Below, piece after piece: positions 11,092 to 35,764 of a stretch of 64,000 bases of DNA. The notes under the pieces were generated by a model. That model was not told where the DNA came from, did not search any database, and was given only the letters and a program-made list of their open reading frames with translations. Numbering within the stretch: the stretch's first letter is position 1; every line of letters starts with the position of its first letter. Source of the stretch: Sulfurimonas sp. (GTDB taxonomy: Bacteria > Campylobacterota > Campylobacteria > Campylobacterales > Sulfurimonadaceae); contig JAKITC010000004.1 in assembly GCA_021648285.1 (NCBI GenBank), forward strand, positions 1-64,000, given 5' to 3'. Position numbers and translations under genes: made by a program.

Positions 11092-11448
11092 ATGATACAA
11101 TCTTTAAATCAGAAGGAGAATGATGTGGAAGTGTTTTTAAAAAGTGTCGCGGCACTCAATGATGAAACAAGAGTCTTAATACTACGATTTTTGGATGAGT
11201 ATGGCGAATGTTGTGTTTGTGATATGCAAAACTCACTCAATATGATTCAATCTCGACTCTCACGTCATCTTAAGATTTTAAAAGAAGCAGGGTTTATTAG
11301 AGTAGAGAGAAAAGGAACCTGGGCATATTACTCTATAAGAAGTCCATTAGACAAATTTAGAAGCGAATCTATAAAAGAGATTACATATCTTGAGATAGAG
11401 CTTCCTGAGTTAAAAAAAATATCTGAAACCAGAGAATGTAAAATATGA
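11092..11448 (+). CDS. arsR: ArsR/SmtB-family metalloregulator
   Basis: 'ALNDETRVLILRFLDEYGECCVCDMQNSLNMIQSRLSRHLKILKEAGFI' with ECCVC metal motif. Confidence 0.9.
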   Translation: MIQSLNQKENDVEVFLKSVAALNDETRVLILRFLDEYGECCVCDMQNSLNMIQSRLSRHLKILKEAGFIRVERKGTWAYYSIRSPLDKFRSESIKEITYLEIELPELKKISETRECKI

Positions 11449-11918
11449 AAAAGAAAGTATTATTTATTTGTATTCACAATAGTGCAAGAAGTCAGATTGC
11501 TGAAGCTCTTTTAAAAAAATATGCAAATGATTTGTTTGAAGTCCAAAGTGCTGGGTTTGAGCCTTCTAGTATAAATCCTATTGCAATTGAGTTATTACAA
11601 AAAGAAGAAAATATTAATATCTCAAATAATAGTTCTGATGCAATTTTTGAACTATTTAAACAAGGTAGACATTTTAATTTAGTTATTACGGTTTGTGATG
11701 AGGGTAATGCACAAAGATGTCCTATATTTCCAGGTCTTAATTATAGAATACATTGGAGTTTTGAAGACCCAAGCTCAATTGAGGGAACGGATGAGCAAAA
11801 ATATGAAAAAGTTAAAGAGATTTACCTACTAATTAAAAAAGAGGTAATGAATTTTATATATCTTGCAAAAAATGAAAAATTGAAAGAAAACTTTCCATTC
11901 AATTGGAAAATAGAATAA
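11445..11918 (+). CDS. arsC: arsenate reductase, low-molecular-weight phosphatase type (copy 1)
   Basis: 'FICIHNSARSQIAEALL' P-loop; 'VCDEGNAQRCPIFPG'. Confidence 0.85.
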   Translation: MKKKVLFICIHNSARSQIAEALLKKYANDLFEVQSAGFEPSSINPIAIELLQKEENINISNNSSDAIFELFKQGRHFNLVITVCDEGNAQRCPIFPGLNYRIHWSFEDPSSIEGTDEQKYEKVKEIYLLIKKEVMNFIYLAKNEKLKENFPFNWKIE

Positions 11919-12325
11919 ATATGAAAAAAAATGTATTAGTATTATGTACTGGAAATAGCTGTCGTTCGATTATGGGAGAAGCACTTATTAATGCTAAACT
12001 CGGGAGTTGTGTAGAAGCTCAAAGTTCAGGGGTCAAAGCAAGTGGAGCTGTAAATCCACACGCAGAGACTTTATTAAAAAAAAAGGGGTATTGGAGAAAT
12101 GAATATCACTCTAAGGTTATTGAAACTGTTTTAGATACGGCATTTGATTTAATCATCACAGTATGTGACCATGCAAAAGAGACTTGTCCAATGTTCCCAA
12201 AAGCTGTAAAAACAATTCATGTAAGCTTTGATGACCCAAGTGATAAAGCAGAAGAAGAGTATGAAATAACTCTTAATTTAATTGAAAAAGAGTTATTACC
12301 CATTGTAAAAGAGGAGCTTTGTTAA
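11903..12325 (+). CDS. arsC: arsenate reductase, low-molecular-weight phosphatase type (copy 2)
   Basis: 'LCTGNSCRSIMGEALI' P-loop; 'VCDHAKETCPMFP'. Confidence 0.87.
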   Translation: MENRINMKKNVLVLCTGNSCRSIMGEALINAKLGSCVEAQSSGVKASGAVNPHAETLLKKKGYWRNEYHSKVIETVLDTAFDLIITVCDHAKETCPMFPKAVKTIHVSFDDPSDKAEEEYEITLNLIEKELLPIVKEELC

Positions 12326-13270
12326 ATGTGGTATGAACTTTCCAAAGAGTTTATTTATAATGTTATAGGACTACAAGGAAAGTTGGCAGATGCCTCACAC
12401 TTTTTTATCTATGACACTATAAAGATTTGGTTTTTATTAATCACTATCATATTTGCCATTTCATTTTTAAGGACTTGGGTAAATACAGAATATGTTCGTG
12501 CCCACCTACAAGGTAAGTCATCATTTTATGGACATATTGGAGCTTCTCTTTTTGGAATAATTACACCTTTTTGTTCATGCTCTGCAATACCTTTGTTCTT
12601 AGGATTTATTCAAGCACGAATTCCTATTGGAGTGACATTTAGTTATCTTATTTCTGCACCAATGAATAACGAAATTGCAATTGCTATGCTATTTGGTATC
12701 TTTGGTTGGAAAGTGACATCAATTTATATAGCTTTTGGTCTTACAGTTGCCATCTTTGGTGGCTGGTTGATAGGAAAGCTCAATATGGAAAAAGAAATTT
12801 TAATGGATGTCAAAGCGATTGAAGGAGAGCTTGAAGCTACCTTGGTGAAGTTGTCATTTCAAGAGAGAGCTAAAGAAGCTTGGAACTACACATTAGATAT
12901 TTTCAAAAAAATATATATCTATGTAATGATTGGAGTTGGAGTTGGAGCATGGATACATGGATATATCCCAACTGATTTTATAGCTTCTTATACTGGAGCA
13001 GGTAATCCATTTGCAGTTATTATAGCTGTTTTGATGGGAATACCTATGTATTCTAATGCGGCGGGTGTTATGCCACTTGTAGAAGTTTTAACAAGTAAAG
13101 GTATGTTACTTGGAACTGCTCTGAGTTTTATGATGGCAGTTACAGCACTGAGTCTACCAGAAGCACTGATCCTTAAAAAGATTATTTCACTTAAACTTAT
13201 TGGTATATTTTTTGCCATAGTGGGAAGTGGAATTATTGCTATTGGGTATCTATTTAACATTATTTTATAA
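12326..13270 (+). CDS. permease (DUF318/ArsP-like)
   Basis: 'GHIGASLFGIITPFCSCSAIPLFLGFIQARIPIGVTFSYLISAP'. Confidence 0.83.
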   Translation: MWYELSKEFIYNVIGLQGKLADASHFFIYDTIKIWFLLITIIFAISFLRTWVNTEYVRAHLQGKSSFYGHIGASLFGIITPFCSCSAIPLFLGFIQARIPIGVTFSYLISAPMNNEIAIAMLFGIFGWKVTSIYIAFGLTVAIFGGWLIGKLNMEKEILMDVKAIEGELEATLVKLSFQERAKEAWNYTLDIFKKIYIYVMIGVGVGAWIHGYIPTDFIASYTGAGNPFAVIIAVLMGIPMYSNAAGVMPLVEVLTSKGMLLGTALSFMMAVTALSLPEALILKKIISLKLIGIFFAIVGSGIIAIGYLFNIIL

Positions 13271-13280
13271 AGGATGAAAA

Positions 13281-13514
13281 TTGAAAATTGAAGTTTTAGG
13301 AACAGGCTGTTCAAAGTGTATTCAATTAGAAGCAGTTGTAAAGCAAGCCGTTGCAAAAAGTGGCAAGTTCGCTCAAATCCAAAAAGTTGATGATATTATG
13401 AAAATCATGGAATATCAAGTGGTTAGTACACCTGGTCTTGTAATTGACGGTAAAGTTGTAAGTACTGGAAAAGTTCTAAGTGTAGATGAAGTTCTTGCAC
13501 TTATAAATGGGTAA
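13281..13514 (+). CDS. small thioredoxin-fold protein (TM0996/MTH895 family)
   Basis: 'IEVLGTGCSKCIQLEAVV', 'STPGLVIDGKVV'; TTG start. Confidence 0.85.
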   Translation: MKIEVLGTGCSKCIQLEAVVKQAVAKSGKFAQIQKVDDIMKIMEYQVVSTPGLVIDGKVVSTGKVLSVDEVLALING

Positions 13515-13741: not shown

Positions 13742-14881
13742 TTAAAATCTTATAATAACTTCAGTCCCCTCTTTCTCTTTGGAGTTTATCTCTATTTTAA
13801 ATTCATACTCTTTGACAATGCCGTCTACTACATTTAGTCCAACTCCAAAACCGCCTGCGTAAGTGTTTGCTCTAGTAAATCTTTTAAAAATAATGCTAAG
13901 TTTATCTTTGGCTATGCCTATGCCCTCATCTTTGATGCAAAAAAAGTTTTGTGTTGTTTGTATATTTATCTTAGAGTTTGGCAGAGAATATTTTATAGCA
14001 TTGCTAAGTAGGTTATTTACAAGCATTTTTGCTTTTGTTGGTGCAATATTTAATATACATGTAGCTCGTTCAAATTCTACATTTATGTTTTTTCTCTCTA
14101 GCAGCTCATTAAAGTACTCAATACTCTCTTTTACGGTTTTGCTAAAGTTCAACTCCTCTGTAGCTTCACATTTGGCATCAAAGCTCAAAAAACTCAAAGA
14201 TGAGTAAATATCATATAGTTGTTTCGTACTGATAGAGATGTTTTGAATTATTTTTTCATCATACACTTTTTTGTTTCTGGCTCTTGAAGTACTCATCATA
14301 AGAGCTGTAATTGGAGTATTTAGCTCATGAGTTGTGTCTTTTACAAAGTCTTCTATCTCTTGCATTTTATCTTTAATAGGACGTAAAAATATATATGATA
14401 ATATGACAGCGATTATCATAATAACAATACCAACAAAAATTGAAGTTACAATAACACCATTTTTTAGTTTCATAACATTTTGTGTACACTCACTACTCTG
14501 TACAACTACATTATCAACACCAAGGTGTCCAATAGTCGCTTGTGAAACAAGAGTGAATGTTTTTTCATTCATATAGTAATCTTTTGAGAAGTTTACTTCT
14601 TCCATAATAGAACCATATTTTATATTGTGTTGTTTGTCATATAGTGCAACTGTGCTATTAGGAAACTTAGCTAGTACAAACTTAGTGCTCATCATATGTG
14701 CTCTTATGACATCAGCACTTACTTTATCTGCAATATGATTCATCTTATAGTAATTGTTTTGCATCTCTATTGCTTTTTGTGATGAGTAAAACCAGTAACT
14801 GGCAAAAAACAGGAATATAAACGAAGAAAGTAGATATAGAGTTAAAAAAGAGTAAAATGATTTTTTGGTTATATTATTCAT
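13742..14881 (-). CDS. sensor histidine kinase
   Basis: 'VKDTTHELNTPITALMMS' H box, 'LLSNAIKYS' N box, 'IKDEGIGIAKD', 'GGFGVGLNVV'. Confidence 0.9.
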   Translation of the reverse strand: MNNITKKSFYSFLTLYLLSSFIFLFFASYWFYSSQKAIEMQNNYYKMNHIADKVSADVIRAHMMSTKFVLAKFPNSTVALYDKQHNIKYGSIMEEVNFSKDYYMNEKTFTLVSQATIGHLGVDNVVVQSSECTQNVMKLKNGVIVTSIFVGIVIMIIAVILSYIFLRPIKDKMQEIEDFVKDTTHELNTPITALMMSTSRARNKKVYDEKIIQNISISTKQLYDIYSSLSFLSFDAKCEATEELNFSKTVKESIEYFNELLERKNINVEFERATCILNIAPTKAKMLVNNLLSNAIKYSLPNSKINIQTTQNFFCIKDEGIGIAKDKLSIIFKRFTRANTYAGGFGVGLNVVDGIVKEYEFKIEINSKEKEGTEVIIRF

Positions 14882-15542
14882 ACCTGTAACCGATCCCTCT
14901 TATGGTTTGAATCTTGTCCTTGCCGATTATATCTCTAAGTGTTCTTATGTGAGAGCGAACAGTGGCATCACTAGGCATATTGTCAAAATCCCAAATGTTT
15001 TGTGTTAGTTCCTCGTTAGTTATAACTCTTTTATTGTTATTAATAAAATAAGTCAGTATATCACTATCTTTTTGGCTTAAAACATACTCTTTTGATTTTT
15101 TTGTTATTGTTTTTGTTTGTATTGAAAATAAAATATCTTTGGTTATGGATATTTTATTTTCATTATCGATGTTAAAAAGTTTTTTAGTATTTTGAATACG
15201 AACATCCAACTCTTCAAGTTCAAATGGCTTTTTTATATAGTCATGAGCACCAAGCTCAAATGCTTTTTTGAGGTATGATGTATCAGTGTAAGCAGTAATT
15301 ATAATAGTTGGTGTAGTGTTATTAAATTCTCGGAGTTCTTCTAGGAGCTCAAGACCATTTTTCCCAGTCACATTAATATCAAAGATAAAGAGATCATACC
15401 TGTCAGAGTCTAATTTTTTATATACTTCTTCAGAGTTAAAGGCATAATCAACACTCCAAGATTCTCGTAGGTAATCCAGTAAAATATCTGATAGAACAGC
15501 ATCATCTTCCATCAAAAGTATTTTCATGACTAATCCATCCAT
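14874..15542 (-). CDS. OmpR-family response regulator
   Basis: 'LLMEDDAVLSDIL', 'DLFIFDINVTGKNG', winged-helix 'DATVRSHIRTLRDIIGKDKIQTIRGIGYRYE'. Confidence 0.92.
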   Translation of the reverse strand: MDGLVMKILLMEDDAVLSDILLDYLRESWSVDYAFNSEEVYKKLDSDRYDLFIFDINVTGKNGLELLEELREFNNTTPTIIITAYTDTSYLKKAFELGAHDYIKKPFELEELDVRIQNTKKLFNIDNENKISITKDILFSIQTKTITKKSKEYVLSQKDSDILTYFINNNKRVITNEELTQNIWDFDNMPSDATVRSHIRTLRDIIGKDKIQTIRGIGYRYE

Positions 15543-16340: not shown

Positions 16341-16372
16341 TACACAAATACTACACACTAATAATGTATAAT
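16341..16372 (+). promoter_or_regulatory. TACACA-N5-TACACA-N9-TATAAT promoter (site a)
   Basis: TACACAAATACTACACACTAATAATGTATAAT; 29 bp before the ATG at 16402. Confidence 0.7.
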
Positions 16373-16401: not shown

Positions 16402-16695
16402 ATGAAAGCAATTAAGTTCTCAACACTGCTACTGAGTGTAGCTCTTTTACTAGGCGTAGGAATTACAACTGTAAGTGCAGATGCAAAAACAGTAAAAAGT
16501 GAAAAGCTTACTTTAAACATGGACGGCAAAGTTTATGACAGTCAAAAAAATTGTAAATGTGAAAAGTGTGAATGTGGTATGAAAAAAGGTCCAAAAGCAG
16601 CTATGAAATGTGGTGATGGAAAATGTGGTGATGCTAAAAAAACCTCGCCTAAAAAAATGATGAAATGTGGTGCTGGAAAGTGCGGTAGTAACTAA
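16402..16695 (+). CDS. secreted Cys-rich peptide with two MKCGxGKCG motifs (HvfA-like)
   Basis: signal peptide 'LLLSVALLLGVGITTVSADA' followed by 'KNCKCEKCECGMKKGPKAAMKCGDGKCGDAKKTSPKKMMKCGAGKCGSN'. Confidence 0.7.
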   Translation: MKAIKFSTLLLSVALLLGVGITTVSADAKTVKSEKLTLNMDGKVYDSQKNCKCEKCECGMKKGPKAAMKCGDGKCGDAKKTSPKKMMKCGAGKCGSN

Positions 16696-16760
16696 CTGTC
16701 TTTATCGTTGAAGCTTTTTAGGAGCTTTGACTTTTTACTTCCCGCTTTTAATATCAAAAC

Positions 16761-16792
16761 TACACAAACATTGCACACAACAGAGATATAAT
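16761..16792 (+). promoter_or_regulatory. TACACA-N5-TGCACA-N9-TATAAT promoter (site b)
   Basis: TACACAAACATTGCACACAACAGAGATATAAT upstream of the DoxX gene. Confidence 0.7.
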
Positions 16793-16815
16793 TTTATACA
16801 TATGAGGAGTCTATT

Positions 16816-17256
16816 ATGAAACTCAAAGAATTTTATATGGATTTTACACATGTTACAGATTTTTTTAAGCCACTCTCATTACTGTTTGCAAGACTAATAG
16901 TAGCCTATGGTTTTTATACACCGGCTATGAATAAATGGAGTGATATAGAAGGTATAGCTGAGTGGTTTGGAAGCATAGGTATACCATTTCCTTTGCTAAA
17001 CGCATATATGGCTGCAAGCACAGAAATATTGGGAGTGGTTTTACTTACTTTTGGTCTTTTTACAAGAGCCATATCTCTGCCACTAATAGTTGTTATGATT
17101 GTGGCAATCGTAACCGTACATCTTCCAAATGGATTTTCTGCCGGAGACAATGGATTTGAGATCCCACTTTACTACATGTTGTTCTTATTTATCTTTGTTT
17201 CTAACGGAGCAGGTAAATTTAGTTTAGACAGATTGCTGTTTGGCGATAAGAACTAA
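16816..17256 (+). CDS. DoxX-family membrane protein
   Basis: 'LFARLIVAYGFYTPAMNKW', 'TEILGVVLLTFGLFTRAISLPLIVVMIVAIVTVH'. Confidence 0.8.
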   Translation: MKLKEFYMDFTHVTDFFKPLSLLFARLIVAYGFYTPAMNKWSDIEGIAEWFGSIGIPFPLLNAYMAASTEILGVVLLTFGLFTRAISLPLIVVMIVAIVTVHLPNGFSAGDNGFEIPLYYMLFLFIFVSNGAGKFSLDRLLFGDKN

Positions 17257-17275: not shown

Positions 17276-17467
17276 ATGTGTATTCCACATGGAGCGACAA
17301 TGCCTACAAGCAATGGTTATGCGAAAGAAAAAAAACCAAAAAAACATATTGAAAAAGTTTCACAAGATCAATTTGAAAAAGGTGATCCAGATTTTGTAGA
17401 TGAGAGAAAAACTGAAGATGAATCTAAAAATAAAAAACAGTCTTTTTTTGAATCTTTGTTTAGCTAA
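17276..17467 (+). CDS. small hypothetical protein (MCIPHGATMPTS...)
   Basis: ATG at 17276 preceded by aaaaggag; operonic position; the ORF track start at 17240 has no comparable RBS. Confidence 0.5.
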   Translation: MCIPHGATMPTSNGYAKEKKPKKHIEKVSQDQFEKGDPDFVDERKTEDESKNKKQSFFESLFS

Positions 17468-17480
17468 TGTATAATTATTT

Positions 17481-17984
17481 ATGATTTTAAACTCTCGCAG
17501 AACTTTTTTAAAAAATAGTTTTTTAACTTCGGTTGTATTGCTTACATGTGGAGAAAAACTTTTTGCTGCAGTTACTCCTTTGCAAACTATCGCCATGGTG
17601 CATAAAGACCTGTTTCCAGATAGTGATATGATCCCAAATGCAGACAACATAAATGCATCGTACTATCTTAACTCTATCCTCAATCACTCTCGTGTTACTG
17701 ATGAAAATAAAACTTTTATACGAAATGGCGTGAAGTGGCTTAATGAAGAGTCTGTTACAAAATATAAAAAAATATATACAAAACTTTCCTCATCTCAAAG
17801 ACAAAAAATACTACAAGAAATCGCTCAAACAAATTGGGGAGATAGCTGGATAAATACAATTATGTCATATCTGCTTGAAGCAATGTTGGGTGACCCTGTT
17901 TATGGTGGGAATAGAGATGAGACTGGTTGGAAATGGCTTAATCATAAGTCCGGAATGCCAAGACCTGAAGAGGCACTTGTATGA
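17481..17984 (+). CDS. gluconate 2-dehydrogenase subunit 3-like protein, Tat-type signal
   Basis: 'SRRTFLKNSFLTSVVLL' twin-Arg leader; 'MLGDPVYGGNRDETGWKWLNHKSGMPRP'. Confidence 0.7.
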   Translation: MILNSRRTFLKNSFLTSVVLLTCGEKLFAAVTPLQTIAMVHKDLFPDSDMIPNADNINASYYLNSILNHSRVTDENKTFIRNGVKWLNEESVTKYKKIYTKLSSSQRQKILQEIAQTNWGDSWINTIMSYLLEAMLGDPVYGGNRDETGWKWLNHKSGMPRPEEALV

Positions 17985-19639
17985 AGTATGATATTTGCAT
18001 AGTAGGAAGCGGAGCAGGTGGAGCGCCAATAGCTTATGAACTCTCAAATGCCGGGTATAAAGTTGTGGTTTTAGAAAAAGGTCCAAACTATAGGGAAGAA
18101 GATTTTAGCAAAGATGAAGTTGCAGTTAGTCGAAGAGACCTCTATACACCATTGTTAAAAGATGAACGACATGTAATAAACGACCGTGAAGAAGATGGAA
18201 GTGTAACAAGATATGATGGCAAAGAGTACAGTTGGAGTTTTTGGAATGGCTCAATGGTCGGCGGCTCATCGAATCTGATGAGTGGATATTTTCATCGTAT
18301 GAAACCTGATGACTTTCGTCTTAAGAGTAAATATGGAAAAATTGATGGAGCAAATATTGTTGATTGGCCGATAAACTATGATGATTTAGAATCTTATTAT
18401 ACAAAGGTTGAAGAGGTCATCGGAGTCTCGGGCAATACAGTTAAGCATAAGTTTTCAGAGCCTCGAACAACAAAAAATTTCCCATATCAAATGTTAGAAG
18501 TCAGCGGTGTTACAAAATGGTTTGACAGCACATGTGAAAGTTTAGGATATGAAAGCATACCGACTCCTCGCGCAATTTTACCCCATAGTGCTCTTGATAG
18601 AAAAGGCTGTTCATACTCAAATTTTTGTGGAAGTTATGGCTGTTCAACCGGGGCAAAAGGGAGTGCTAGAGCTGCTCTGCTTCAAATGTGTGATGCCAAG
18701 ATAATCAGTGATGCTTTTGTTTTTAAGCTTGATAGCACTAAAAGTAAAATCACAAAAGCACACTACTACGATAAAGAGTTAAAACATAAAACTATCGAAG
18801 CAAAAATCTTTGTAGTTGCGGCTCAAGCCATTGAGAGCTCAAGACTTCTTTTAAACTCTAAAAACGAATATTTTGTAAATGGTTTGGCAAACAACAGCGG
18901 GCAAGTTGGAAAAAATCTTATCTTCTCTGCGGGTGGAATCGGACAAGGGCGTATAAGGTTTGAGAAACTTACAAAAGAGCAACAGCGTGAGTTGATGCAG
19001 CCAGGACTATTTTTTAACCGTTCTTTGCAAGCTTGGTATGAGTTTAAAGCCAAAGATAAAAAGTATAAAGGCGGAACAATAGACTTTTTGTTTGAGCACG
19101 CAAATATTATAAGCCGTGCTACTAGAGAGATGTATGATGAGAATGGAGAGCTTATGTGGGGGAAAAAACTTCAGAAAAAGATGCATAAAAATCTTACAAC
19201 TTCAAGAGTTCTGACATTTGAAGTGTTTAATGACTGGTTGCCAACTGATTACTGTAATGTAACCATAGATGATAAGGCTAAAGACAAGTTTGGTGTAAAT
19301 GTCGGAGCTATAAATCTATATTCACATCCGCATGATATAGAAGTTGGCAATCACTTGGCTAAAAAAGCAAAACGTGTTTTAGAGGAGATGGGAGCGGAAG
19401 AAATCTCAGTAAGTATCTCATCCGCACCACCTCCAAACTTGGTCGCAGGAGGGTGCAGGTTTGGTAATAATCCTAAAACTTCAGTTCTTGATTTAAACTG
19501 CAAAGCACATGAGCTAAGTAATTTGTATGTAACAGATGGCAGTTTTATGCCGACAGGTGGAAGTGTCCCATATACTTGGACGATCTATGCAAACTCATTT
19601 AGAGTCGCTGATGTGATTATGGATGAGTTGAAAGTTTAG
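17981..19639 (+). CDS. GMC-family FAD-dependent oxidoreductase
   Basis: 'DICIVGSGAGGAPIAYELSNAGYKVVVLEKGP' and C-terminal 'LYVTDGSFMPTGGSVPYTWTIYANSFRVAD'. Confidence 0.85.
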   Translation: MKYDICIVGSGAGGAPIAYELSNAGYKVVVLEKGPNYREEDFSKDEVAVSRRDLYTPLLKDERHVINDREEDGSVTRYDGKEYSWSFWNGSMVGGSSNLMSGYFHRMKPDDFRLKSKYGKIDGANIVDWPINYDDLESYYTKVEEVIGVSGNTVKHKFSEPRTTKNFPYQMLEVSGVTKWFDSTCESLGYESIPTPRAILPHSALDRKGCSYSNFCGSYGCSTGAKGSARAALLQMCDAKIISDAFVFKLDSTKSKITKAHYYDKELKHKTIEAKIFVVAAQAIESSRLLLNSKNEYFVNGLANNSGQVGKNLIFSAGGIGQGRIRFEKLTKEQQRELMQPGLFFNRSLQAWYEFKAKDKKYKGGTIDFLFEHANIISRATREMYDENGELMWGKKLQKKMHKNLTTSRVLTFEVFNDWLPTDYCNVTIDDKAKDKFGVNVGAINLYSHPHDIEVGNHLAKKAKRVLEEMGAEEISVSISSAPPPNLVAGGCRFGNNPKTSVLDLNCKAHELSNLYVTDGSFMPTGGSVPYTWTIYANSFRVADVIMDELKV

Positions 19640-19664
19640 TTACTCCTCTATCTGTTTGTTATAT
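19636..19664. repeat. left imperfect direct repeat flanking the RM cassette
   Basis: tttagttactcctctatctgtttgttatat versus cttagttactcttctatctgcttatttata at 21688-21717. Confidence 0.6.
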
Positions 19665-20726
19665 TTGTGCTGTTTGATTTAATGCTACATTCATGTCATT
19701 AATATGATAAATTGAATTAGATGGCAAAGACTCATCGGAGTAAATTTTATTTAAATTTTCATAAATTTTCTTTGCTAAATAGTATCCTAAATTAGGCGGT
19801 ACCGCATTGCCTACCATTTTATATCTGGCAGTTAAGTTTTTATAATAAAATTTATGAGTATCTGGGAAAGTTTGAATTCTAGCACATTCCCTAATACTAA
19901 GTCGTCTATATAAGTGCTCTTTTGAGGGAACAAATATTCTTTTATTTTGTTCTACAAATTGCATTTTAGGTGCATGAGGATGAAGTGGCGCATGTCTGCC
20001 ACCTGCTTGAATTGTAAATGATGGTTCATCCCAACTTCTTACTCTATTTCTTGACATGTACATTGATGAAAAGCCACCAATCATATATTCATGGTTATCA
20101 ATTATGCAATTATCACCATTTGTATAATTTTTTTCTTTTGCAGATATTGCACTATCTTTTAAATCAAATATTACATCTTTTAAAAATCTTTTATTTGAAA
20201 ATTCTTTAGGAAATTCAAATGTAATATTTAAATCTTTTCTAAAGCCAATAAAGAAGATTCGCTTTCTGTCTTGTGGTACATTGTAGTCATGAGCGTTCAA
20301 AAGTTTAAAGGATAGGTTGTAGCCACTATCAATAAAATGGTTTTTTATATTTTCAAGAGCTTCTTCGTGCCTTGGTGCCAACATTCCTGATACATTTTCT
20401 GCTAAAAAGAATAGTGGTTTTTTATCTCTTAAAACACGAACAAATTCAAAAAATAGCTGTCCTCTGTGATCATCTATTCCTCTTGATTTTCCAGCTTCAC
20501 TCCAGCTTTGACATGGTGGACCACCAATTAATCCTAGTGTTTGAGGAATTTCATTTGAAGGAATGTTTACTATGCTTCTTCTGTCTAAAGTTGTCTTTTG
20601 AAAGTTTTTTTCAAATGTTTCCCAAATTTCTTTGTCATATTCATTCGCCCAGATAGTTTTAAAACCTGCTTTCTCAAATCCTAAATCTAAACCACCAGCC
20701 CCTGCAAATAAAGATATGATATTCAT
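19659..20726 (-). CDS. DNA (cytosine-5) methyltransferase, M.NgoPII-like
   Basis: 'SLFAGAGGLDLGFEKAGF', 'GLIGGPPCQSWSEAG', 'FLAENVSGM', 'NVPQDRKRIFFIG', 'SIRECARIQTFPDTHKF'. Confidence 0.92.
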   Translation of the reverse strand: MNIISLFAGAGGLDLGFEKAGFKTIWANEYDKEIWETFEKNFQKTTLDRRSIVNIPSNEIPQTLGLIGGPPCQSWSEAGKSRGIDDHRGQLFFEFVRVLRDKKPLFFLAENVSGMLAPRHEEALENIKNHFIDSGYNLSFKLLNAHDYNVPQDRKRIFFIGFRKDLNITFEFPKEFSNKRFLKDVIFDLKDSAISAKEKNYTNGDNCIIDNHEYMIGGFSSMYMSRNRVRSWDEPSFTIQAGGRHAPLHPHAPKMQFVEQNKRIFVPSKEHLYRRLSIRECARIQTFPDTHKFYYKNLTARYKMVGNAVPPNLGYYLAKKIYENLNKIYSDESLPSNSIYHINDMNVALNQTAQI

Positions 20727-20730
20727 GAGA

Positions 20731-21556
20731 TTAAACCTTGAAAACTAATAGTTTTGCGTCAAGCAAATCAATAGGGTTGTTTGGATTTTTTATTCTAACA
20801 TCTGAAACAGTAATATTATCATTATCTATATTTTCAACTACTTCTTTATCTGTTTGTGGAAGGGAATCATATTTATCTTTTTTTATTAAACAAATCAATT
20901 GAAAATCTTTTGCATCGTCATAAGTATAAATATAGTTAAAAGTTTTATTTGGATTGTCAATATGCCACATTCCTCTAATTCTTAAATCAGTAATACCTAA
21001 TGGATCAACTTTTTTAACTTTTCCTAATTCTTTTGTTTGGGTAAGTTATACCATTTAAAATAGTATCTTTAATTCTTTCGTAAGTTTCTTTATCTGCACA
21101 AAAACAATCTCCATATACTAACCATAAAGATTTTAAATCAGATTGACTGACATATCCCACAGCATAAAGCATATCTTTTATACTCCATTCTTCACAACTT
21201 CTACAAGCAGATGTTATCATTGGACTATCAGCATAAAGTTTTGCTTTTGGATATGAACTATTTAATGCAATTGCACTATTTTTAGATTCTAATTTTTTAA
21301 CTTCTATTGCATCACTATCTTTTAACATTAAATCGGGAGGATTATTTTTATTACCTTGGTAAGAGTATATTTTTGATAATTTTTCTAATCTTTTTTGTTC
21401 GTTGCTTTCGTTTATTGTATTGGTAAAAATATCTTTTATATATGTTTCTAATCCTTCACCCATATTGTTAACTCTATTATTTCCATTAGTTACATTGCTA
21501 ATATTAACCTGATAGTTGTTTACAATATTTATAAATGCTTTGATTAGATTTGACAT
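20731..21556 (-). pseudogene. NgoPII-like type II restriction endonuclease split by a frameshift
   Basis: ORF 21014-21556 ('GEGLETYIKD', 'PPDLMLKDSDAIEVKKLES', 'SYPKAKLYADSPMITSACRSCEEW') ends at 'ITYPNKRIRKS*'; another frame continues 'QTKELGKVKKVDPLGITDLRIRGMWHIDNPNKTFNYIYTYDD' into ORF 20731-20970. Confidence 0.75.
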
Positions 21557-23503: not shown

Positions 23504-23535
23504 TACACAATCACTACACACTATTACTATATAAT
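23504..23535 (+). promoter_or_regulatory. TACACA-N5-TACACA-N9-TATAAT promoter (site c)
   Basis: TACACAATCACTACACACTATTACTATATAAT upstream of the multicopper oxidase. Confidence 0.7.
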
Positions 23536-23557: not shown

Positions 23558-25264
23558 ATGATTCAAAATAACTCTAAGATTACAAGACGGCAATTTGTTA
23601 AAGGCATCGCTGTATCATCCATAGTAGCTTCAAATCTCATAAATCTATCAGCTCAAGAAACAAATTTACTTTTTGATAAAAATACAGTATTAACAGGGGA
23701 TGAGTTTTTCTTAAATATTGCGTCTACTCCGGTGAACATTACAGGAACGGCAGCTATGGCAACTACTGTTAACGGTCTTATATCCGGACCTACGCTCAAA
23801 TTTAAAGAAGGTCAAGACGTAACTATACATGTAACTAATCATCTTAATGAAGATACTTCTATTCATTGGCATGGAATAATTTTACCAGAAAAGATGGATG
23901 GTGTTCCAGGGATTAGTTATGATGGTATTGCTCCTGGAGAAACTTTTACATATAAATTTAGAGTTGTTCAAAGTGGAACTTATTGGTATCACTCTCACTC
24001 AGGTTTTCAAGAACAAACCGGTATCTATGGGGCTATAGTTATTGAACCAAAAGAAGAAATACTTGAATATGATAGAGAATATGTTATTACATTATCCGAT
24101 TGGTCAGATGAGAAACCATCAGATATTTATAGAAAACTAAAGCTATCAGCTGACTATTATAATTTTAAACAAAGAACTATTGGTGATTTTTTTGAAGAAG
24201 TCAAAGAAAAAGGTTTTTTCTCTGCATTTAATGAAAGAAAAATGTGGAATGAAATGGCAATGACGGACCGCGATTTATCAGATGTGACAGGTTATACATA
24301 CACTTTTCTTATGAATGGTCAGAATCCAGCTACAAATTTTAAAGCTATCTTTAAAAATGGAGAAAAAATAAGACTTCGTGTTATAAATTCTGCTGCAATG
24401 ACATTTTTTGATGTAAGAATACCAGGATTAAAAATGAAAGTGGTAGCTACAGATGGAAACTATATTCAGCCGGTAGAAGTTGATGAATTTAGAATAGGTG
24501 TTGCTGAAAGTTATGATGTTATTGTTGAGCCACAAGAGAATACCGCATATGCAATTTTCGCTCAAAGTATAGATAGAAGTGGATATGCACTTGGTGCTTT
24601 GACTTATGATGCAGATGTTGTGGCAGATACACCACCAATGGATCCACAACCAATACTCTCTCTCACTGATATGGATATGAATATGAGTAATATGGAGGGA
24701 ATGGATCATTCAAGACACGATATATCGACAATGGAGAAACCAGCAATTCCTATTACTAAATTGAAAGAAGACAGAGGTGTGCAAACAACAATGAAAGCAA
24801 TGGACCCTCAGTATAGACTCAATGATCCTGGAGTTGGATTAAGAAACAATGGTAGAAAAGTTCTTACTTATGCAGACTTAAAATCACTTCGTTCAACAAT
24901 GCATGATAGATACCCAGATAGAGAAATTATTCTACATTTAACTGGAAATATGGAAAGGTATATGTGGTCCATTAACGGTATAGCGTATAAAGATGCTAAA
25001 CCATTAGAATTTAAATATGGCGAAAGACTTAGAGTTACTTACATCAATGACACGATGATGAATCATCCTATGCACCTTCATGGTATGTGGAGTGATTTAG
25101 AAACTGGTGATGATAATTACTTGGTTAGAAAACACACGATTATTGTACAACCTGGTTCTAAAATTAGTTTTCGTGTAAATGTTGATGCAAAAGGTTCTTG
25201 GGCCTATCACTGTCACTTACTTTATCATATGACTGATATGTTTAGAAAAGTCGTAGTGGTTTAA
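23558..25264 (+). CDS. multicopper oxidase (CopA/PcoA type)
   Basis: 'SIHWHGIILP', 'GTYWYHSHSGFQEQ', 'HPMHLHGMW', 'WAYHCHLLYHMTDMF'; Tat-like 'TRRQFVKG'; Met-rich 'MDMNMSNMEGMDHSRHD'. Confidence 0.93.
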   Translation: MIQNNSKITRRQFVKGIAVSSIVASNLINLSAQETNLLFDKNTVLTGDEFFLNIASTPVNITGTAAMATTVNGLISGPTLKFKEGQDVTIHVTNHLNEDTSIHWHGIILPEKMDGVPGISYDGIAPGETFTYKFRVVQSGTYWYHSHSGFQEQTGIYGAIVIEPKEEILEYDREYVITLSDWSDEKPSDIYRKLKLSADYYNFKQRTIGDFFEEVKEKGFFSAFNERKMWNEMAMTDRDLSDVTGYTYTFLMNGQNPATNFKAIFKNGEKIRLRVINSAAMTFFDVRIPGLKMKVVATDGNYIQPVEVDEFRIGVAESYDVIVEPQENTAYAIFAQSIDRSGYALGALTYDADVVADTPPMDPQPILSLTDMDMNMSNMEGMDHSRHDISTMEKPAIPITKLKEDRGVQTTMKAMDPQYRLNDPGVGLRNNGRKVLTYADLKSLRSTMHDRYPDREIILHLTGNMERYMWSINGIAYKDAKPLEFKYGERLRVTYINDTMMNHPMHLHGMWSDLETGDDNYLVRKHTIIVQPGSKISFRVNVDAKGSWAYHCHLLYHMTDMFRKVVVV

Positions 25265-29246: not shown

Positions 29247-32200
29247 TTAAACATCTTTACTTTTAGACAGTAACTCTTTTTTTGCATAAATCTCAAAAAG
29301 AATTGGAATTATAACAAGACTTAAAATTGCTGAAGATATAATACCGCCAAGCATTGGAGCAGCAATACGCTGCATAACTTCACTTCCAACTCCGTGTGTG
29401 TACATAATAGGAGCTAAACCGGCAAGAATTGCAAACACAGTCATAAGTTTTGGTCTAACCCTTTGAACAGCTCCTTCATAAATAGCTTCACTTAGATGTT
29501 TTAGATTAAAAGCGGTACCATGTTTTTCTTGTGCCTCATCTACGCTCTCTTGCAAATATACTATCATCACAATTGCTGTCTCGGCCGCAACACCTAAGAG
29601 GGCTAGAAATCCAACAATAACGGCGATACTCATAGCAAAATTTAGCATATCTATATATATTAAACCTCCAAGTAGCGCAAATGGAAGGGTTAAAAATACA
29701 ATTAGTGTTGGAACCATCTGTTTAAGTGCAAAATATATGAGTACTAAAATACTTAATAAAACAGCGGGAATAATCCATGTTATTTTTTGCATTGCTGATT
29801 CTAAATATTCAGATTGTCCAGCCCATTCAATATAGTATCCTGGCTCAAAATTAATCTCATCTATGAGTTTTTTAGCTCCATTTTTATAATCTGTTGCAGT
29901 GATACCCTCGTTGGGTGTAATATATACAAAGGTTACTGGATTAGCCATTTCAGATTTAATAACTGAAGCGCTTTGTCTATATTCAATTGTTGCAAAAGTA
30001 GAGAAAGGTACAAACCCAAGTTTTGTTTTAATTTGTATATTTTTTATACTCTCAATTGAACGCCTCTCATCACCCTCTAAGCGAAGTGTGATTGGATAGC
30101 GTTCTAACCCTTTGTACATTGTTGAGACTTTCATTCCACCAATAGCTAATGACGTATAATGAAGCAGAGTGTTTTTAGCTAAACCATAGCGCTGCAATGA
30201 TTCTTCATCTATATCAATATCTAAGTAATATCCGGCACTTGCTTGATCTGCAAAGACAGATAGGGTTTTATCAAATGAACGAAGTTTATTTTCTATCTCT
30301 TTTCCATATTTTTGAAGACCCTCTGGAGTTTGGCCATAAAGTTTAATCCCCAATGGTGTTCTGATTCCACTTAAAAGCATATCAATACGCCCACGAATTG
30401 GGTATGTCCAAGAGTTTGTAAGCCCTGGGACTTGAAGAGCATCTTCCATTTCTTGACGAAGCTTTTCATATGTCATACCCTCTCGCCATTCACTTTCAGG
30501 TTTAAACGTGATAATAGTCTCTATCATACCTAAAGGCGCTGGGTCTGTTGCTGTATCTGCACGACCACCTTTACCAAAAACAGTTTCAACTTCAGGAAAT
30601 GATTTAAGGATTTTATCTGTTTTTTGTGTCAAGGCTTTAGACTGATCAACAGAGATTCCATAAGGAGTTACCGGCATATACATAAAAGTTTGTTCATTAA
30701 GCATCGGCATAAATTCCCATTTAAGAGAGTTAAAAAGTGGGTACATATAACCTAAAGAGGCAACAACACCAACTATTACAAGATACTTTAATTTTAATCC
30801 ATAAACTATAATGGGATGATAAAGCCATATAAAAAATCTGTTAAGAGGATTTTTATTTTCAGGTAAGATTTTTCCTTTTACAAAAAATACCATAAGCACA
30901 GGGACTAAAGTTATACTAAGCAGTGCTCCGGCTGACATGGCAAAAGTTTTTGTAAAGGCTAGAGGCGTAAAGAGTAAACCTTCTTGTCCAGAGAGTGCAA
31001 AAATAGGTAAAAAAGAAACAACTATAAGAGCAAGAGCAAAAAATATTGGGCGACCAACAAGTTGTGATGATTTTAAAATAATATCTATACGCTCCTTGTC
31101 TGTAGGTACGCGTTTCTCTTTAACTTCGAACTTATGTAACATTTTATGGGCATTTTCAATCATAACAATACTGGCATCTACCATTGCACCAATTGCAATT
31201 GCGATTCCACCTAAACTCATTATATTTGAGCCTATATCAAATAAGTACATGAGCAAGAAAGTAATGCCAACAGTTAATGGAAGTACAATTAAAACGATTA
31301 AAGATGAGCGAAAATGCATCAAAAATAGTCCAATTATAATAACAACGATAATAGACTCTTCAAGGAGTGTTGTTTTTAGTGTATCTACTGCTTTTTCTAT
31401 CAAGGCAGAGCGGTCATAAACTGTAATAACATCAACTCCCTCAACTTTTAGCTCTTTCATCTTTTTATCAATGCGCTTAATGGCAGAGTAAACATCTTCA
31501 CCATATCGTAAAAGTACAATACCTCCGACAACTTCACCTTCCCCATTTAAATCTGCTATACCACGCCTAGAAGCAGGGGTAAGTTCAACTCTGGCAATAT
31601 CTCCAAGAGTTACAGCAATACCATCTTTTCGCGTAACTACAAGTTTTCTAATGTCATCTAAATCTTTAACATAACCTTTGGCTTGAACCATCCACTCAAA
31701 ACCATTTTCAATAATAATTCGTCCACCAGTATCATTATTGTTTTTTTGAAGAACCTTTGCTATGGTGTTAATATTTAAATTGTAACGAATAAGGTTGTCA
31801 TTATTTATAGTGACTTGATAGGTTGGTATAAAACCACCGATAGAAGCAACTTCACTTACACCATCTACGCCCATAAGAGCATATTTGTAATAATAATCTT
31901 GTAAAGTTCTAAGCTCGGCTAAATTTTTTGTCTTTGAAGTAAGTGCATACTCATAAGCCCAACCAACACCACTAGCATCTGGCCCAAGTGAGACTTCCAT
32001 AGAATCAGGAAGTTGGGATTGGATGGAAGAGAGTTGCTCTAAAACACGACTTCTAGCCCAGTAAAGGTCGGTTCCTTCTTTAAATATGATATATATTAAA
32101 CCATTTTCATAAGTAGAATATCCACGAACCGTATCAATATTTGCGATAGCTAAAAATTGTGATACTAAAGGATATGTCCCTTGGTCTTCAATGATTTCAG

Positions 32201-32372
32201 GAGATTGCCCCGGCCATTTTATCTGTACAATTGCCTGAGGAGGAGATAAATCAGGAAGTGCATCAAGTGGTGTGTTTTTTAAAGAGTAGTATGAACCCAT
32301 AGTAAAAAATAGAGCCATCATTAGTATAAGAAATTTATTCCTTATACTAAATTCAATTAATTTTTCAATCAT
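29247..32372 (-). CDS. cusA: CusA-type heavy-metal efflux RND transporter
   Basis: 'LPDLSPPQAIVQIKWPGQSPEIIEDQGTYPL', 'GSNIMSLGGIAIAIGAMVDASIVMIENAHK', 'ITWIIPAVLLSILVLIYFALK'. Confidence 0.93.
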   Translation of the reverse strand: MIEKLIEFSIRNKFLILMMALFFTMGSYYSLKNTPLDALPDLSPPQAIVQIKWPGQSPEIIEDQGTYPLVSQFLAIANIDTVRGYSTYENGLIYIIFKEGTDLYWARSRVLEQLSSIQSQLPDSMEVSLGPDASGVGWAYEYALTSKTKNLAELRTLQDYYYKYALMGVDGVSEVASIGGFIPTYQVTINNDNLIRYNLNINTIAKVLQKNNNDTGGRIIIENGFEWMVQAKGYVKDLDDIRKLVVTRKDGIAVTLGDIARVELTPASRRGIADLNGEGEVVGGIVLLRYGEDVYSAIKRIDKKMKELKVEGVDVITVYDRSALIEKAVDTLKTTLLEESIIVVIIIGLFLMHFRSSLIVLIVLPLTVGITFLLMYLFDIGSNIMSLGGIAIAIGAMVDASIVMIENAHKMLHKFEVKEKRVPTDKERIDIILKSSQLVGRPIFFALALIVVSFLPIFALSGQEGLLFTPLAFTKTFAMSAGALLSITLVPVLMVFFVKGKILPENKNPLNRFFIWLYHPIIVYGLKLKYLVIVGVVASLGYMYPLFNSLKWEFMPMLNEQTFMYMPVTPYGISVDQSKALTQKTDKILKSFPEVETVFGKGGRADTATDPAPLGMIETIITFKPESEWREGMTYEKLRQEMEDALQVPGLTNSWTYPIRGRIDMLLSGIRTPLGIKLYGQTPEGLQKYGKEIENKLRSFDKTLSVFADQASAGYYLDIDIDEESLQRYGLAKNTLLHYTSLAIGGMKVSTMYKGLERYPITLRLEGDERRSIESIKNIQIKTKLGFVPFSTFATIEYRQSASVIKSEMANPVTFVYITPNEGITATDYKNGAKKLIDEINFEPGYYIEWAGQSEYLESAMQKITWIIPAVLLSILVLIYFALKQMVPTLIVFLTLPFALLGGLIYIDMLNFAMSIAVIVGFLALLGVAAETAIVMIVYLQESVDEAQEKHGTAFNLKHLSEAIYEGAVQRVRPKLMTVFAILAGLAPIMYTHGVGSEVMQRIAAPMLGGIISSAILSLVIIPILFEIYAKKELLSKSKDV

Positions 32373-32374
32373 AA

Positions 32375-33376
32375 TTAATACAACTCATTTATTTGAGCAT
32401 CTGAATCCATCATAAATAGAGCGTTATTTACTACTTCATCGCCTTCGTCTAAACCAGCTACAACTTTGTAAGTATTTGCATCAATAATTTTAACACTTAC
32501 TTCAAGAGGCTCATACTCACCCTCATACTCACCAACCATAAAGACATAGTATTTTGAATTTTTACGAATCACTGCTGTTGTTGGTAGAGTTAGTTGAGTC
32601 TCTTTTCCTTTAACAGAGATAACTGTCGCATACATCCCTGGAAAAAGTTTATGATCTTTGTTGTTTACTTGTAAGCGTAGGGTTAGTGTAGCAATTTTAG
32701 GATCAAGTTGCGGATATAAGAGCTTTTTATTTGTAGTATATGTTTTCTCTAAGCCCTTAAAAGTCAGTTCATACTTTTTAATACTTGTTATGTTTGTGCG
32801 TTGCTCTGAAAAAAGTTTTGCTTCCACCCAAACTTCATCAAGATTTACAATCTGAAAAAGCTTTTGTTTTGCATTAAAAGCGGAACCTTTATCAATGTTT
32901 TTAACAAAAATGTAACCATCTATTGGAGAGTAGATTGTAGTATTTGGTGAAACTTTTCTTTTTTTTGTGATTTCTGCTATCTCTTTATTACTTATTCCTA
33001 AAAGTTTTAATTTTAATTTTGCACTCTCTAACATACTTTTATTTGGACGCTTTTTATTGTATTTTATTGTATTTAAATACTCATCTTTTGCCTTAAGCAC
33101 TTCAGGAGAATAAACTGTTAATAGTGGTTCACCTTTTTTTACATATTTATATATTTTATCTGCATATAGTTTTACAACATAACCGCCAAACCTTGGAGAG
33201 ACACTGTTCATACGTGTTTGATCCATAGTGACATAGCCATAGTTTTTTATGCGCTGGGCTTTAGTTTCTTTTTTTACTTTTACAGTTTGTACGCTAAAAA
33301 GTTGTTCAACTGTTGCCTCTTTAGCGAGTAGTACCAAGGGTAAGACCAGTAACAACAGTTTAATTAATATTTTCAT
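32375..33376 (-). CDS. cusB: CusB-type periplasmic adaptor
   Basis: 'YVTMDQTRMNSVSPRFGGYVVKLYAD', 'VKKGEPLLTVYSPEVL', 'TTIYSPIDGYIF', 'LFPGMYATV'. Confidence 0.88.
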   Translation of the reverse strand: MKILIKLLLLVLPLVLLAKEATVEQLFSVQTVKVKKETKAQRIKNYGYVTMDQTRMNSVSPRFGGYVVKLYADKIYKYVKKGEPLLTVYSPEVLKAKDEYLNTIKYNKKRPNKSMLESAKLKLKLLGISNKEIAEITKKRKVSPNTTIYSPIDGYIFVKNIDKGSAFNAKQKLFQIVNLDEVWVEAKLFSEQRTNITSIKKYELTFKGLEKTYTTNKKLLYPQLDPKIATLTLRLQVNNKDHKLFPGMYATVISVKGKETQLTLPTTAVIRKNSKYYVFMVGEYEGEYEPLEVSVKIIDANTYKVVAGLDEGDEVVNNALFMMDSDAQINELY

Positions 33377-34551
33377 TTCATCTCTCCTGAAAGGGCTGAT
33401 ATTTTAGCAAGGGAGCGATTGTAATTTGCTATTGCTCTTATGCTTTTTTGTTCAAGTTTTAGCTTTTGTACTAAAATATCTATATATTTAAACAAATCTC
33501 CACCGGTTGAGATAGAAGAAGAGGTTAAGTCAAACATATGTTCTATTTGAGGAAGAGCTTGTTTATGTACAATATTATAAATATTATATGCTGATTTCAT
33601 CTCTAAGTAAGCAGTTTTAAACTCTGAATCTAGTTTTATTTTTATATCTTCTTTTTTACTTTGTGCAACGAGTGTTAATTTTCTTGCTTTTTGTTCTTTG
33701 TAATCTTCTGACCCATAAATAGGAAGACTTACTCCAATACCAAATGTTGCAAAATTATCAAAATTATTTCTATAAGAATAACCAGCTAAAAGATTTATAT
33801 CTGGATAATGATTTAACTCGGCTGTTTTTACCAAGGCTCTGCTTTTTTGAATCTCTTTGTTCTTTATGGCAAGAGAGTGGTTATTTACCAGATTCTCTTG
33901 CAAGCTATCTTTACTTGGCATATCTGAAATGCTAAGTTTTAACTCTAGTTTTTCAACTTTAAAAGATGCTAAGTAAGATAATTTTGCATAAGCAGTATAA
34001 ATTTTAGCATCTAAATCACTTTTTTGAATACGCAGATCTGAAAGAGTTAACTCCGCAGACATAATTCCCATATGCTGGTTATTAGAAGTAGTTGTATAAG
34101 ATTCAAAAAGTTCTATATTTTGTTTTGTCAACTCCTCATAATCATCAATAATTTTATAAATATTTTTAAGTTCCCATACGGTAAAAGCTTGATTTTTTAT
34201 TTTCTCAACTAAGCTTACTTTAGCCTGTTGTAAATTTTCATTTAATACACTCTCTTGTGCAAGGGCAACCTTTTTTAGACTATCCCTTTTGCCAAAATAG
34301 GGAAGTTTTTGTTGAAAAAGTAATGTTTTTTGACTCATAGCTTGAGCTTCATCTATGGTGTTTTGTGTGTAAGATATTATAGGATTAGAAAATAGATTAG
34401 CAAGTTTTATATCTGAACGATTTGCATGTATACGATGAGTTATAGACTCTAAAGATGGATTTTTTTCTAATGCTTTTGTTATCACTTCATCAAGGCTTAA
34501 GCCATAAAGGCTTGAAGCAAAAAGAGATAGGGCTAAAAACAGATTTTTCAT
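33373..34551 (-). CDS. TolC-family outer-membrane efflux protein (CusC-like)
   Basis: 'LSLDEVITKALEKNPSLESI', 'FQQKLPYFGKRDSLKKVA', 'ATFGIGVSLPIYG'. Confidence 0.88.
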   Translation of the reverse strand: MKNLFLALSLFASSLYGLSLDEVITKALEKNPSLESITHRIHANRSDIKLANLFSNPIISYTQNTIDEAQAMSQKTLLFQQKLPYFGKRDSLKKVALAQESVLNENLQQAKVSLVEKIKNQAFTVWELKNIYKIIDDYEELTKQNIELFESYTTTSNNQHMGIMSAELTLSDLRIQKSDLDAKIYTAYAKLSYLASFKVEKLELKLSISDMPSKDSLQENLVNNHSLAIKNKEIQKSRALVKTAELNHYPDINLLAGYSYRNNFDNFATFGIGVSLPIYGSEDYKEQKARKLTLVAQSKKEDIKIKLDSEFKTAYLEMKSAYNIYNIVHKQALPQIEHMFDLTSSSISTGGDLFKYIDILVQKLKLEQKSIRAIANYNRSLAKISALSGEMK

Positions 34552-34560
34552 TTTGTACCT

Positions 34561-34947
34561 TTAAAAATTAAATGAGGTCTTAACGCGTGATTTTTTTCCT
34601 TTGGCAGGAGCGATAAAAATATGAAACTGCCATGTTCCACTCATTGCAATATTTACAGTAACTTCATATTTTCCATTGCCTAAGTCTTTTGCTTTAGCTT
34701 TAGATGCCATAGCTGGCATACCTGGCATTGCTGGCATAAAAGCTTTTACACTTATCTTCGCATCTTTTAGAACTTTATCTTTTTGAGTTATATCAAGTAT
34801 AAAAGTATTTGAACCTGTTGTGAGAGGTTTGTTTGAGCTAATATGAATTTTTGTGCTCCTACTCTTTGCATCTTTGTCAAATGCTGCCCCTTGTAGTAGA
34901 GCAACGCTCAAAGCTAAAGCGAATAAAACTGTTAAAATCTTCTTCAT
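34561..34947 (-). CDS. FixH/YtkA-like secreted protein
   Basis: signal peptide, 'AFMPAMPGMPAMASKAKAKDLGNGKYEVTVNIAMSGTWQFHIFI'. Confidence 0.75.
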   Translation of the reverse strand: MKKILTVLFALALSVALLQGAAFDKDAKSRSTKIHISSNKPLTTGSNTFILDITQKDKVLKDAKISVKAFMPAMPGMPAMASKAKAKDLGNGKYEVTVNIAMSGTWQFHIFIAPAKGKKSRVKTSFNF

Positions 34948-34977: not shown

Positions 34978-35009
34978 ATTTTATCTAAGTTTTGTGTAGG
35001 GAGTGTGTA
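34978..35009 (-). promoter_or_regulatory. TACACA-N5-TACACA-N9-TAAAAT promoter (site d)
   Basis: minus strand TACACACTCCCTACACAAAACTTAGATAAAAT, upstream of the YtkA-like/CusCBA operon. Confidence 0.7.
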
Positions 35010-35135: not shown

Positions 35136-35516
35136 TTACCCCTCTACTCCATAATGATGCTCTATCATCACTTTTTCATACTCATCTGGTTGTAATTTAC
35201 CTTGATTTTGCATATAGCCAATCATTCGTCTAAGAGTTGGTTTCCATTCATTAGCAGAGTGTAAATTTTTATCTTTCATGCCATGACACTGAGTACAGTA
35301 TCTGTTTGCAATAATATAAGGTTTTGAATGTTCTCCTTCTTTTGTAGTCTTAAGTTTAGAACTATTGTTTGCAGAACCCATATTCATCATTCCCATCATG
35401 GGCATCATTGACATTATCCCCATACCAGAATGTCCATCCCCACTCTTTTGCATTGCCATACACCCTGTTAATGTAAGACTTATAGTCATTACCAGTGAAT
35501 ATTTTAATATTTTCAT
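35136..35516 (-). CDS. Met-rich lipoprotein with c-type haem motif
   Basis: 'LTLTGCMAM' lipobox, 'MGIMSMMPMMGMMNMG', 'RYCTQCHGMKDK'. Confidence 0.7.
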   Translation of the reverse strand: MKILKYSLVMTISLTLTGCMAMQKSGDGHSGMGIMSMMPMMGMMNMGSANNSSKLKTTKEGEHSKPYIIANRYCTQCHGMKDKNLHSANEWKPTLRRMIGYMQNQGKLQPDEYEKVMIEHHYGVEG

Positions 35517-35732: not shown

Positions 35733-35764
35733 ATTGTAATAATTTTGTGTGTAGAGTTTGTGTA
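35733..35764 (-). promoter_or_regulatory. TACACA-N5-TACACA-N9-TACAAT promoter (site e)
   Basis: minus strand TACACAAACTCTACACACAAAATTATTACAAT, directed to the 35136-35516 gene. Confidence 0.6.

Follow-up and report, generated by a model that had tools for sequence, protein, structure and literature searches.

A KCG-repeat peptide of the HvfA family, HvfX and an altered GMC flavoprotein in a putative MNIO-independent copper regulon of Sulfurimonas

HvfA, HvfB, HvfC and HvfX make up the oxazolin system of nontypeable Haemophilus influenzae (PMC13419390), and the bufferins with their Buf_EGKCG precursors (PMC12452194) are another closely similar known group. In the published survey of MNIO enzymes, MNIO was missing from no more than 67 of the 2583 genomes that have Buf_EGKCG precursors, versus 45 of 50 genomes with a KCG domain in the genus Sulfurimonas, which thus reverses the rule. 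GMC proteins go unmentioned in that survey (PMC12452194), and in the literature searched we found no paper connecting GMC with HvfX or HvfA.

The locus described here lies in a 64,000-nucleotide stretch of DNA (the window) from Sulfurimonas sp., a sulfur-oxidising bacterium. It resembles the Haemophilus system in that a predicted secreted KCG-repeat precursor, probably a copper ligand, adjoins an HvfX DoxX protein. Unlike that system, the genome of the window has no detected MNIO (HvfB) and the locus no HvfC (DUF2063); the repeats read MKCGxGKCG rather than AEGKCGEGKCG, the peptide contains a metallothionein-like CKCEKCEC segment, and the operon includes GMC and Gluconate_2-dh3 genes. With the bufferins the peptide shares a signal peptide, repeated GKCG, a copper context and a DoxX partner. 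Like metallothioneins, the window peptide and four of its relatives are cysteine-rich with CxC clusters; unlike metallothioneins, the window peptide is predicted to be secreted, has low-complexity KCG repeats and is coupled to HvfX and GMC.

The KCG peptide and the HvfX operon

The genes and the terminator-like element of the locus are as follows.

16402-16695, + strand: HvfA-like KCG-repeat peptide, 97 aa (NF050137, 24.0 bits, cut-off 19.5)
16707-16731, + strand: terminator-like hairpin 3' of the peptide gene, between the peptide and HvfX genes (11 pairs, T tail)
16816-17256, + strand: HvfX-family DoxX membrane protein of 146 aa, whose gene opens the operon (NF050144, 126.4 bits, cut-off 80; Pfam DoxX)
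17276-17467, + strand: p63, conserved 63-aa protein with MC[IM]PHGA...GDPxFxDER, 19 bp after HvfX
17481-17984, + strand: Gluconate_2-dh3 protein (PF13618, 51.6 bits) with the twin-arginine signal SRRTFLK, beginning 13 bp after p63
17981-19639, + strand: GMC flavoprotein of 552 aa with the fold of FAD-glucose/fructose dehydrogenases, 4-bp overlap with Gluconate_2-dh3

The peptide reads MKAIKFSTLLLSVALLLGVGITTVSADAKT...CKCEKCECG...MKCGDGKCG...MKCGAGKCGSN. A hydrophobic N-terminus is visible in the sequence, and the signal peptide would span approximately residues 1-26. The peptide scored above the threshold of NF050137 (KCGExKCG_twice), the NCBIfam repeat-domain model of the HvfA family, but with 27.6 bits it stayed below the cut-off of 95 set for NF050188, the equivalog model of full-length HvfA. 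The initial annotation had described a secreted, HvfA-like 97-aa product with two MKCG(D/A)GKCG motifs and a CKCEKCECG segment next to an HvfX-like DoxX protein; this description was confirmed, the neighbour matching NF050144, the NCBIfam HvfX equivalog.

The HvfX gene starts 120 bp downstream of the peptide gene and heads a tight, co-directional operon of four genes (HvfX, p63, Gluconate_2-dh3 and GMC). The protein p63 matched no known family. The twin arginine of the Gluconate_2-dh3 signal is invariant in 17 sequences, and the protein is presumed to be a Tat hitchhiker subunit. Comparison of its predicted fold (a moderate model) with the PDB gave no match, and a sequence search likewise gave nothing useful. 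Behind the operon, positions 19659-21556 hold a gene resembling DNA cytosine methyltransferases with small neighbours, a restriction-modification-like insert that separates the GMC operon from the genes that follow.

Further KCG proteins were seen. In the same genome, contig C34 encodes a further HvfX copy as well as another KCG peptide, of 98 aa with seven KCG, on the minus strand (locus L084, 903-1343 and 3027-3323), next to a Crp-type regulator and without GMC within the stretch read. A second KCG family is lipoprotein-like, with approximately 120 aa and the pattern GMKCGAGKCGANMFDG...QMRxxDPR...KCGxGKCG (L085, 12832-13200; L090, 3651-4025; L104, 13017-13442). Its genes adjoin those of a CopA ATPase or of Cus-type efflux, and the one member examined gave no convincing Pfam match.

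A promoter box shared with metal-efflux genes

The initial annotation had assigned the peptide and DoxX genes a TACACA promoter each. Both were recovered as direct-repeat boxes, and the same box precedes further genes of the window. These boxes, and a two-component system encoded nearby, are located as follows.

16341-16357, + strand: box TACACAAATACTACACA upstream of the peptide gene, half-sites 11 bp apart, -10 TATAAT at 16367-16372
16761-16777, + strand: second box, TACACAAACATTGCACA, upstream of the HvfX operon, -10 TATAAT at 16787-16792
23504-23520, + strand: same box before a multicopper oxidase gene (23558-25264)
34993-35009, - strand: same box before a YtkA-like plus Cus-type efflux operon (29247-34947, minus strand)
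35748-35764, - strand: same box before the gene of a Met-rich, CxxCH-bearing lipoprotein (35136-35516)
14874-15542, - strand: OmpR-type response regulator (Response_reg and Trans_reg_C)
13742-14881, - strand: histidine kinase adjoining the response regulator

The pattern TACACA-N5-TRCACA occurs seven times in the window at no more than one mismatch, versus 0.5 expected, and no shuffle reached seven. Fetched loci contained 119 boxes in all, with 90 observed versus 0.7 predicted by mononucleotide shuffle, and the consensus of 117 boxes from related loci has TATAAT at a fixed spacing after the box. Boxes were found upstream of 29/87 KCG, 29/77 HvfX, 13/23 p63, 12/101 Gluconate_2-dh3 and 5/12 MNIO genes. 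These rates were measured on loci picked around module genes, the other ORFs of the same loci serving as control (7 boxes in front of 1154 ORFs).

The shared box ties the peptide, HvfX and GMC into one regulon with metal-efflux genes, together with MNIO in those genomes that have it. Judging from the efflux genes, copper would be the signal. A repeat period of 11 bp is typical of OmpR-family regulators, and the response regulator at 14874-15542 is a candidate activator of the box. Positions 11092-13514 encode an ArsR-type regulator, two proteins resembling low-molecular-weight phosphatases or arsenate reductases, a permease-like membrane protein and a small thioredoxin-like protein; this looks like an arsenic cluster.

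Distribution of MNIO and of the gene block

No DUF692 gene had been recognised in the window by the initial annotation, which proposed a search of the full genome. This search was carried out with the profile PF05114 (DUF692), for which control genomes gave matches; neither the window nor the rest of its genome, a 1.97-Mb assembly in 55 contigs with 90% completeness, yielded an MNIO. Among 121 Sulfurimonas genomes, MNIO was present in 5 and not found by PF05114 in 116, whereas 50 contained a KCG domain and 59 an HvfX above cut-off. All five MNIO genomes carry the KCG domain, leaving 45 of the 50 KCG genomes without MNIO. Nine of these 45 are assembled in one or two contigs. PF05114 likewise had no match in five KCG-carrying genomes that are Bacteroidota or unassigned. 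Outside the genus, 12 of 20 KCG genomes have MNIO (329 genomes of the phylum), with the peptide gene directly upstream of MNIO in most; layouts seen in these other Campylobacterota run KCG, MNIO, HvfC, HvfX or MNIO, HvfC, HvfX. DUF2063 (HvfC) was not among the Pfam matches of genes neighbouring the peptide and in the fetched loci was found, by similarity, only beside MNIO.

The peptide could still be an ordinary HvfA substrate whose MNIO is encoded elsewhere and was missed through incomplete assembly. The completeness of 90% would allow for this, and five members of the genus do carry MNIO in such a locus. However, an enzyme acting in trans, one of the two options initially put forward, is made unlikely by the lack of MNIO in the genome itself, in 116 genomes of the genus and in nine nearly closed KCG relatives; with the Bacteroidota or unassigned KCG genomes pointing the same way, we regard a missed MNIO as very improbable. 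A divergent MNIO may have escaped PF05114. With the in-trans option disfavoured, the other one, a peptide that is unmodified or differently modified, is what remains.

The cysteine context of the peptides was compared regardless of kinship. In peptides adjacent to MNIO (n = 8), all 57 cysteines lie within CG, and the position two before the cysteine is G, A or S throughout. In genus peptides without a local MNIO (n = 39), 34 of 295 cysteines fall outside CG, and M, K, E or another residue takes the place two before the cysteine in approximately 40% (M 21%, K 11%); CxC clusters occur in five of the 39, including the window peptide. This relaxed context fits thiolate metal binding that would need no MNIO.

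The peptide had also been termed an orphan, which proved incorrect: HvfX, the predicted Tat-exported Gluconate_2-dh3 protein and the GMC flavoprotein form with it a module that recurs and is co-regulated. Throughout the genus a block recurs in the order KCG, HvfX, (glutamate-synthase-like FMN protein), (p63), Gluconate_2-dh3, GMC. Among the carriers of the module is a cultured relative, Sulfurimonas indica NW8N (L308). Gluconate_2-dh3 and GMC are each present in 83 of the 121 genomes, almost always as a single copy. Within 8 kb upstream of Gluconate_2-dh3, 51 of approximately 80 genus genomes have a KCG ORF in the same orientation, and one has it on the opposite strand. Counted by genome, KCG and Gluconate_2-dh3 co-occur (45/5/38/33 for both, KCG only, Gluconate_2-dh3 only and neither; Fisher p 2e-5, in a test that ignores kinship). 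Where HvfX is missing, KCG immediately precedes Gluconate_2-dh3. One sub-clade has a DUF4395 membrane protein, bearing a KCG tail of its own, between the two or instead; such proteins, with tails of the type KCxSGKCESGKCGGAK, are encoded directly upstream of Gluconate_2-dh3/GMC in L227 (3954-4655), L209 (5185-5883), L215, L218 and L220.

KCG, (HvfX), Gluconate_2-dh3 and GMC recur together in seven Campylobacterota families (outside the genus in families f2, f6, f9, f11, f14 and f20) and in Bacteroidota (Lutibacter, Flavobacteriales and Bacteroidales). On the GMC tree the linkage is clustered (14 label changes) and is partly inherited synteny. An independent-pairs test for correlated evolution of HvfX and KCG was not significant (median p 0.125).

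In approximately one third of the GMC-clade loci whose flanks were long enough, no KCG peptide is encoded close by, so the role of GMC may not depend on the peptide. The GMC operon might then encode an independent periplasmic dehydrogenase that only shares the copper regulon and is mechanistically unrelated to the peptide and HvfX; the MNIO genomes of the genus, in which GMC is mostly on another contig, would agree with this. We nevertheless think it unlikely, as the adjacency recurs across families and two phyla, even where HvfX is absent, and of the 34 loci with an upstream KCG ORF, 33 have it in the same orientation.

The GMC flavoprotein and the state of the peptide

Both by sequence and by fold, the nearest solved structures of the GMC protein are the FAD-glucose dehydrogenase of Burkholderia cepacia with its hitchhiker (6a2u) and fructose dehydrogenase; in Foldseek, the model (pLDDT 72) matched fructose dehydrogenase and FAD-glucose dehydrogenase best, at a TM of approximately 0.77. 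With these Tat-exported FAD dehydrogenases, and with gluconate dehydrogenases, it has in common the GMC fold, three Fe-S cysteines (C210, C216 and C221, present in 166/166 members of its clade) and a PF13618 partner with an RR signal. The catalytic pair of the B. cepacia enzyme is His476/Asn519 (PMC6719666). Unlike the known enzymes, the window protein is without this pair and has the motif NLVAGGCRFG, and no multihaem subunit was seen nearby. The pair is absent from the whole clade (n = 166), which reads NL-VAGGCRFG and GGSVPYTW versus the canonical THNTGGTTMG and SGYNPT. Elsewhere in the order, four distant GMC proteins of other families retain STHNTGGTTMG and SGYNPT. N486, R493 and F494 are each found in 166/166 clade members and C492 in 162/166. 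Because the His/Asn pair is lost while these residues are kept, the substrate is probably neither a sugar nor gluconate. A function as gluconate or sugar dehydrogenase is disfavoured, and the clade probably consists of Tat-exported flavoproteins of another specificity.

An altered substrate would also suit a different proposal, namely that GMC and its Gluconate_2-dh3 hitchhiker have functionally replaced MNIO and HvfC and oxidise the cysteines of the KCG peptide, or the nearby backbone, to give a differently modified RiPP. In several families the GMC pair, next to KCG and HvfX, takes the position that MNIO and HvfC hold elsewhere, and the box upstream of MNIO genes is also that of the Gluconate_2-dh3/GMC genes. 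However, all five MNIO genomes of the genus retain GMC and Gluconate_2-dh3, so this is not a simple swap, and a strict replacement was rejected. In addition, GMC is predicted to be periplasmic whereas MNIO works before export, no peptide-recognition protein was seen, and to our knowledge no GMC enzyme modifies ribosomal peptides. With the GMC loci without KCG, the GMC pairs kept in MNIO genomes and the clustered linkage taken into account, we consider modification of the peptide by GMC rather doubtful and hold it no more than moderately probable that the peptide is a copper buffer with free thiols. The wider notion that the altered-site GMC (N-L-x-AGGC-R-F) and its hitchhiker form a non-MNIO enzyme system acting on HvfA-type KCG peptides, by oxidative modification or by redox cycling, is tentative at best; if true, KCG peptides would have a second route, biosynthetic or functional, across Campylobacterota and Bacteroidota.

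With free thiols, the locus would represent an MNIO-independent, copper-regulon branch of the HvfA/HvfX system. Under metal stress, the HvfA-like peptide would be expressed from the OmpR-type direct-repeat promoter that it has in common with the Cus-type efflux operon, the multicopper oxidase and the HvfX-p63-Gluconate_2-dh3-GMC operon, and would be secreted by the Sec pathway. In the periplasm it would hold Cu(I) by the plain cysteine thiolates of its KCG repeats and its CKCEKCEC segment, and not by thiooxazoles made by MNIO. HvfX in the inner membrane and the Tat-exported GMC flavoprotein would be its partners in the copper-stressed envelope, probably with a redox role in which they maintain or set the state of thiols in the peptide or elsewhere in the envelope.

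HvfA-type peptides are usually regarded as MNIO substrates; here they occur without MNIO in a whole genus, in parts of other families and in some Bacteroidota, and gene order and a promoter box tie them to a GMC protein that lacks the active site of sugar dehydrogenases. An MNIO-less KCG peptide beside an exported flavoprotein, under a putative copper-regulon promoter, suggests a second, undescribed use of such peptides. The role of HvfX in the absence of MNIO becomes testable, as does any need of KCG peptides for thiooxazoles in their copper function, and annotation of KCG peptides as oxazolone/thioamide metallophores is unsafe where MNIO is absent.
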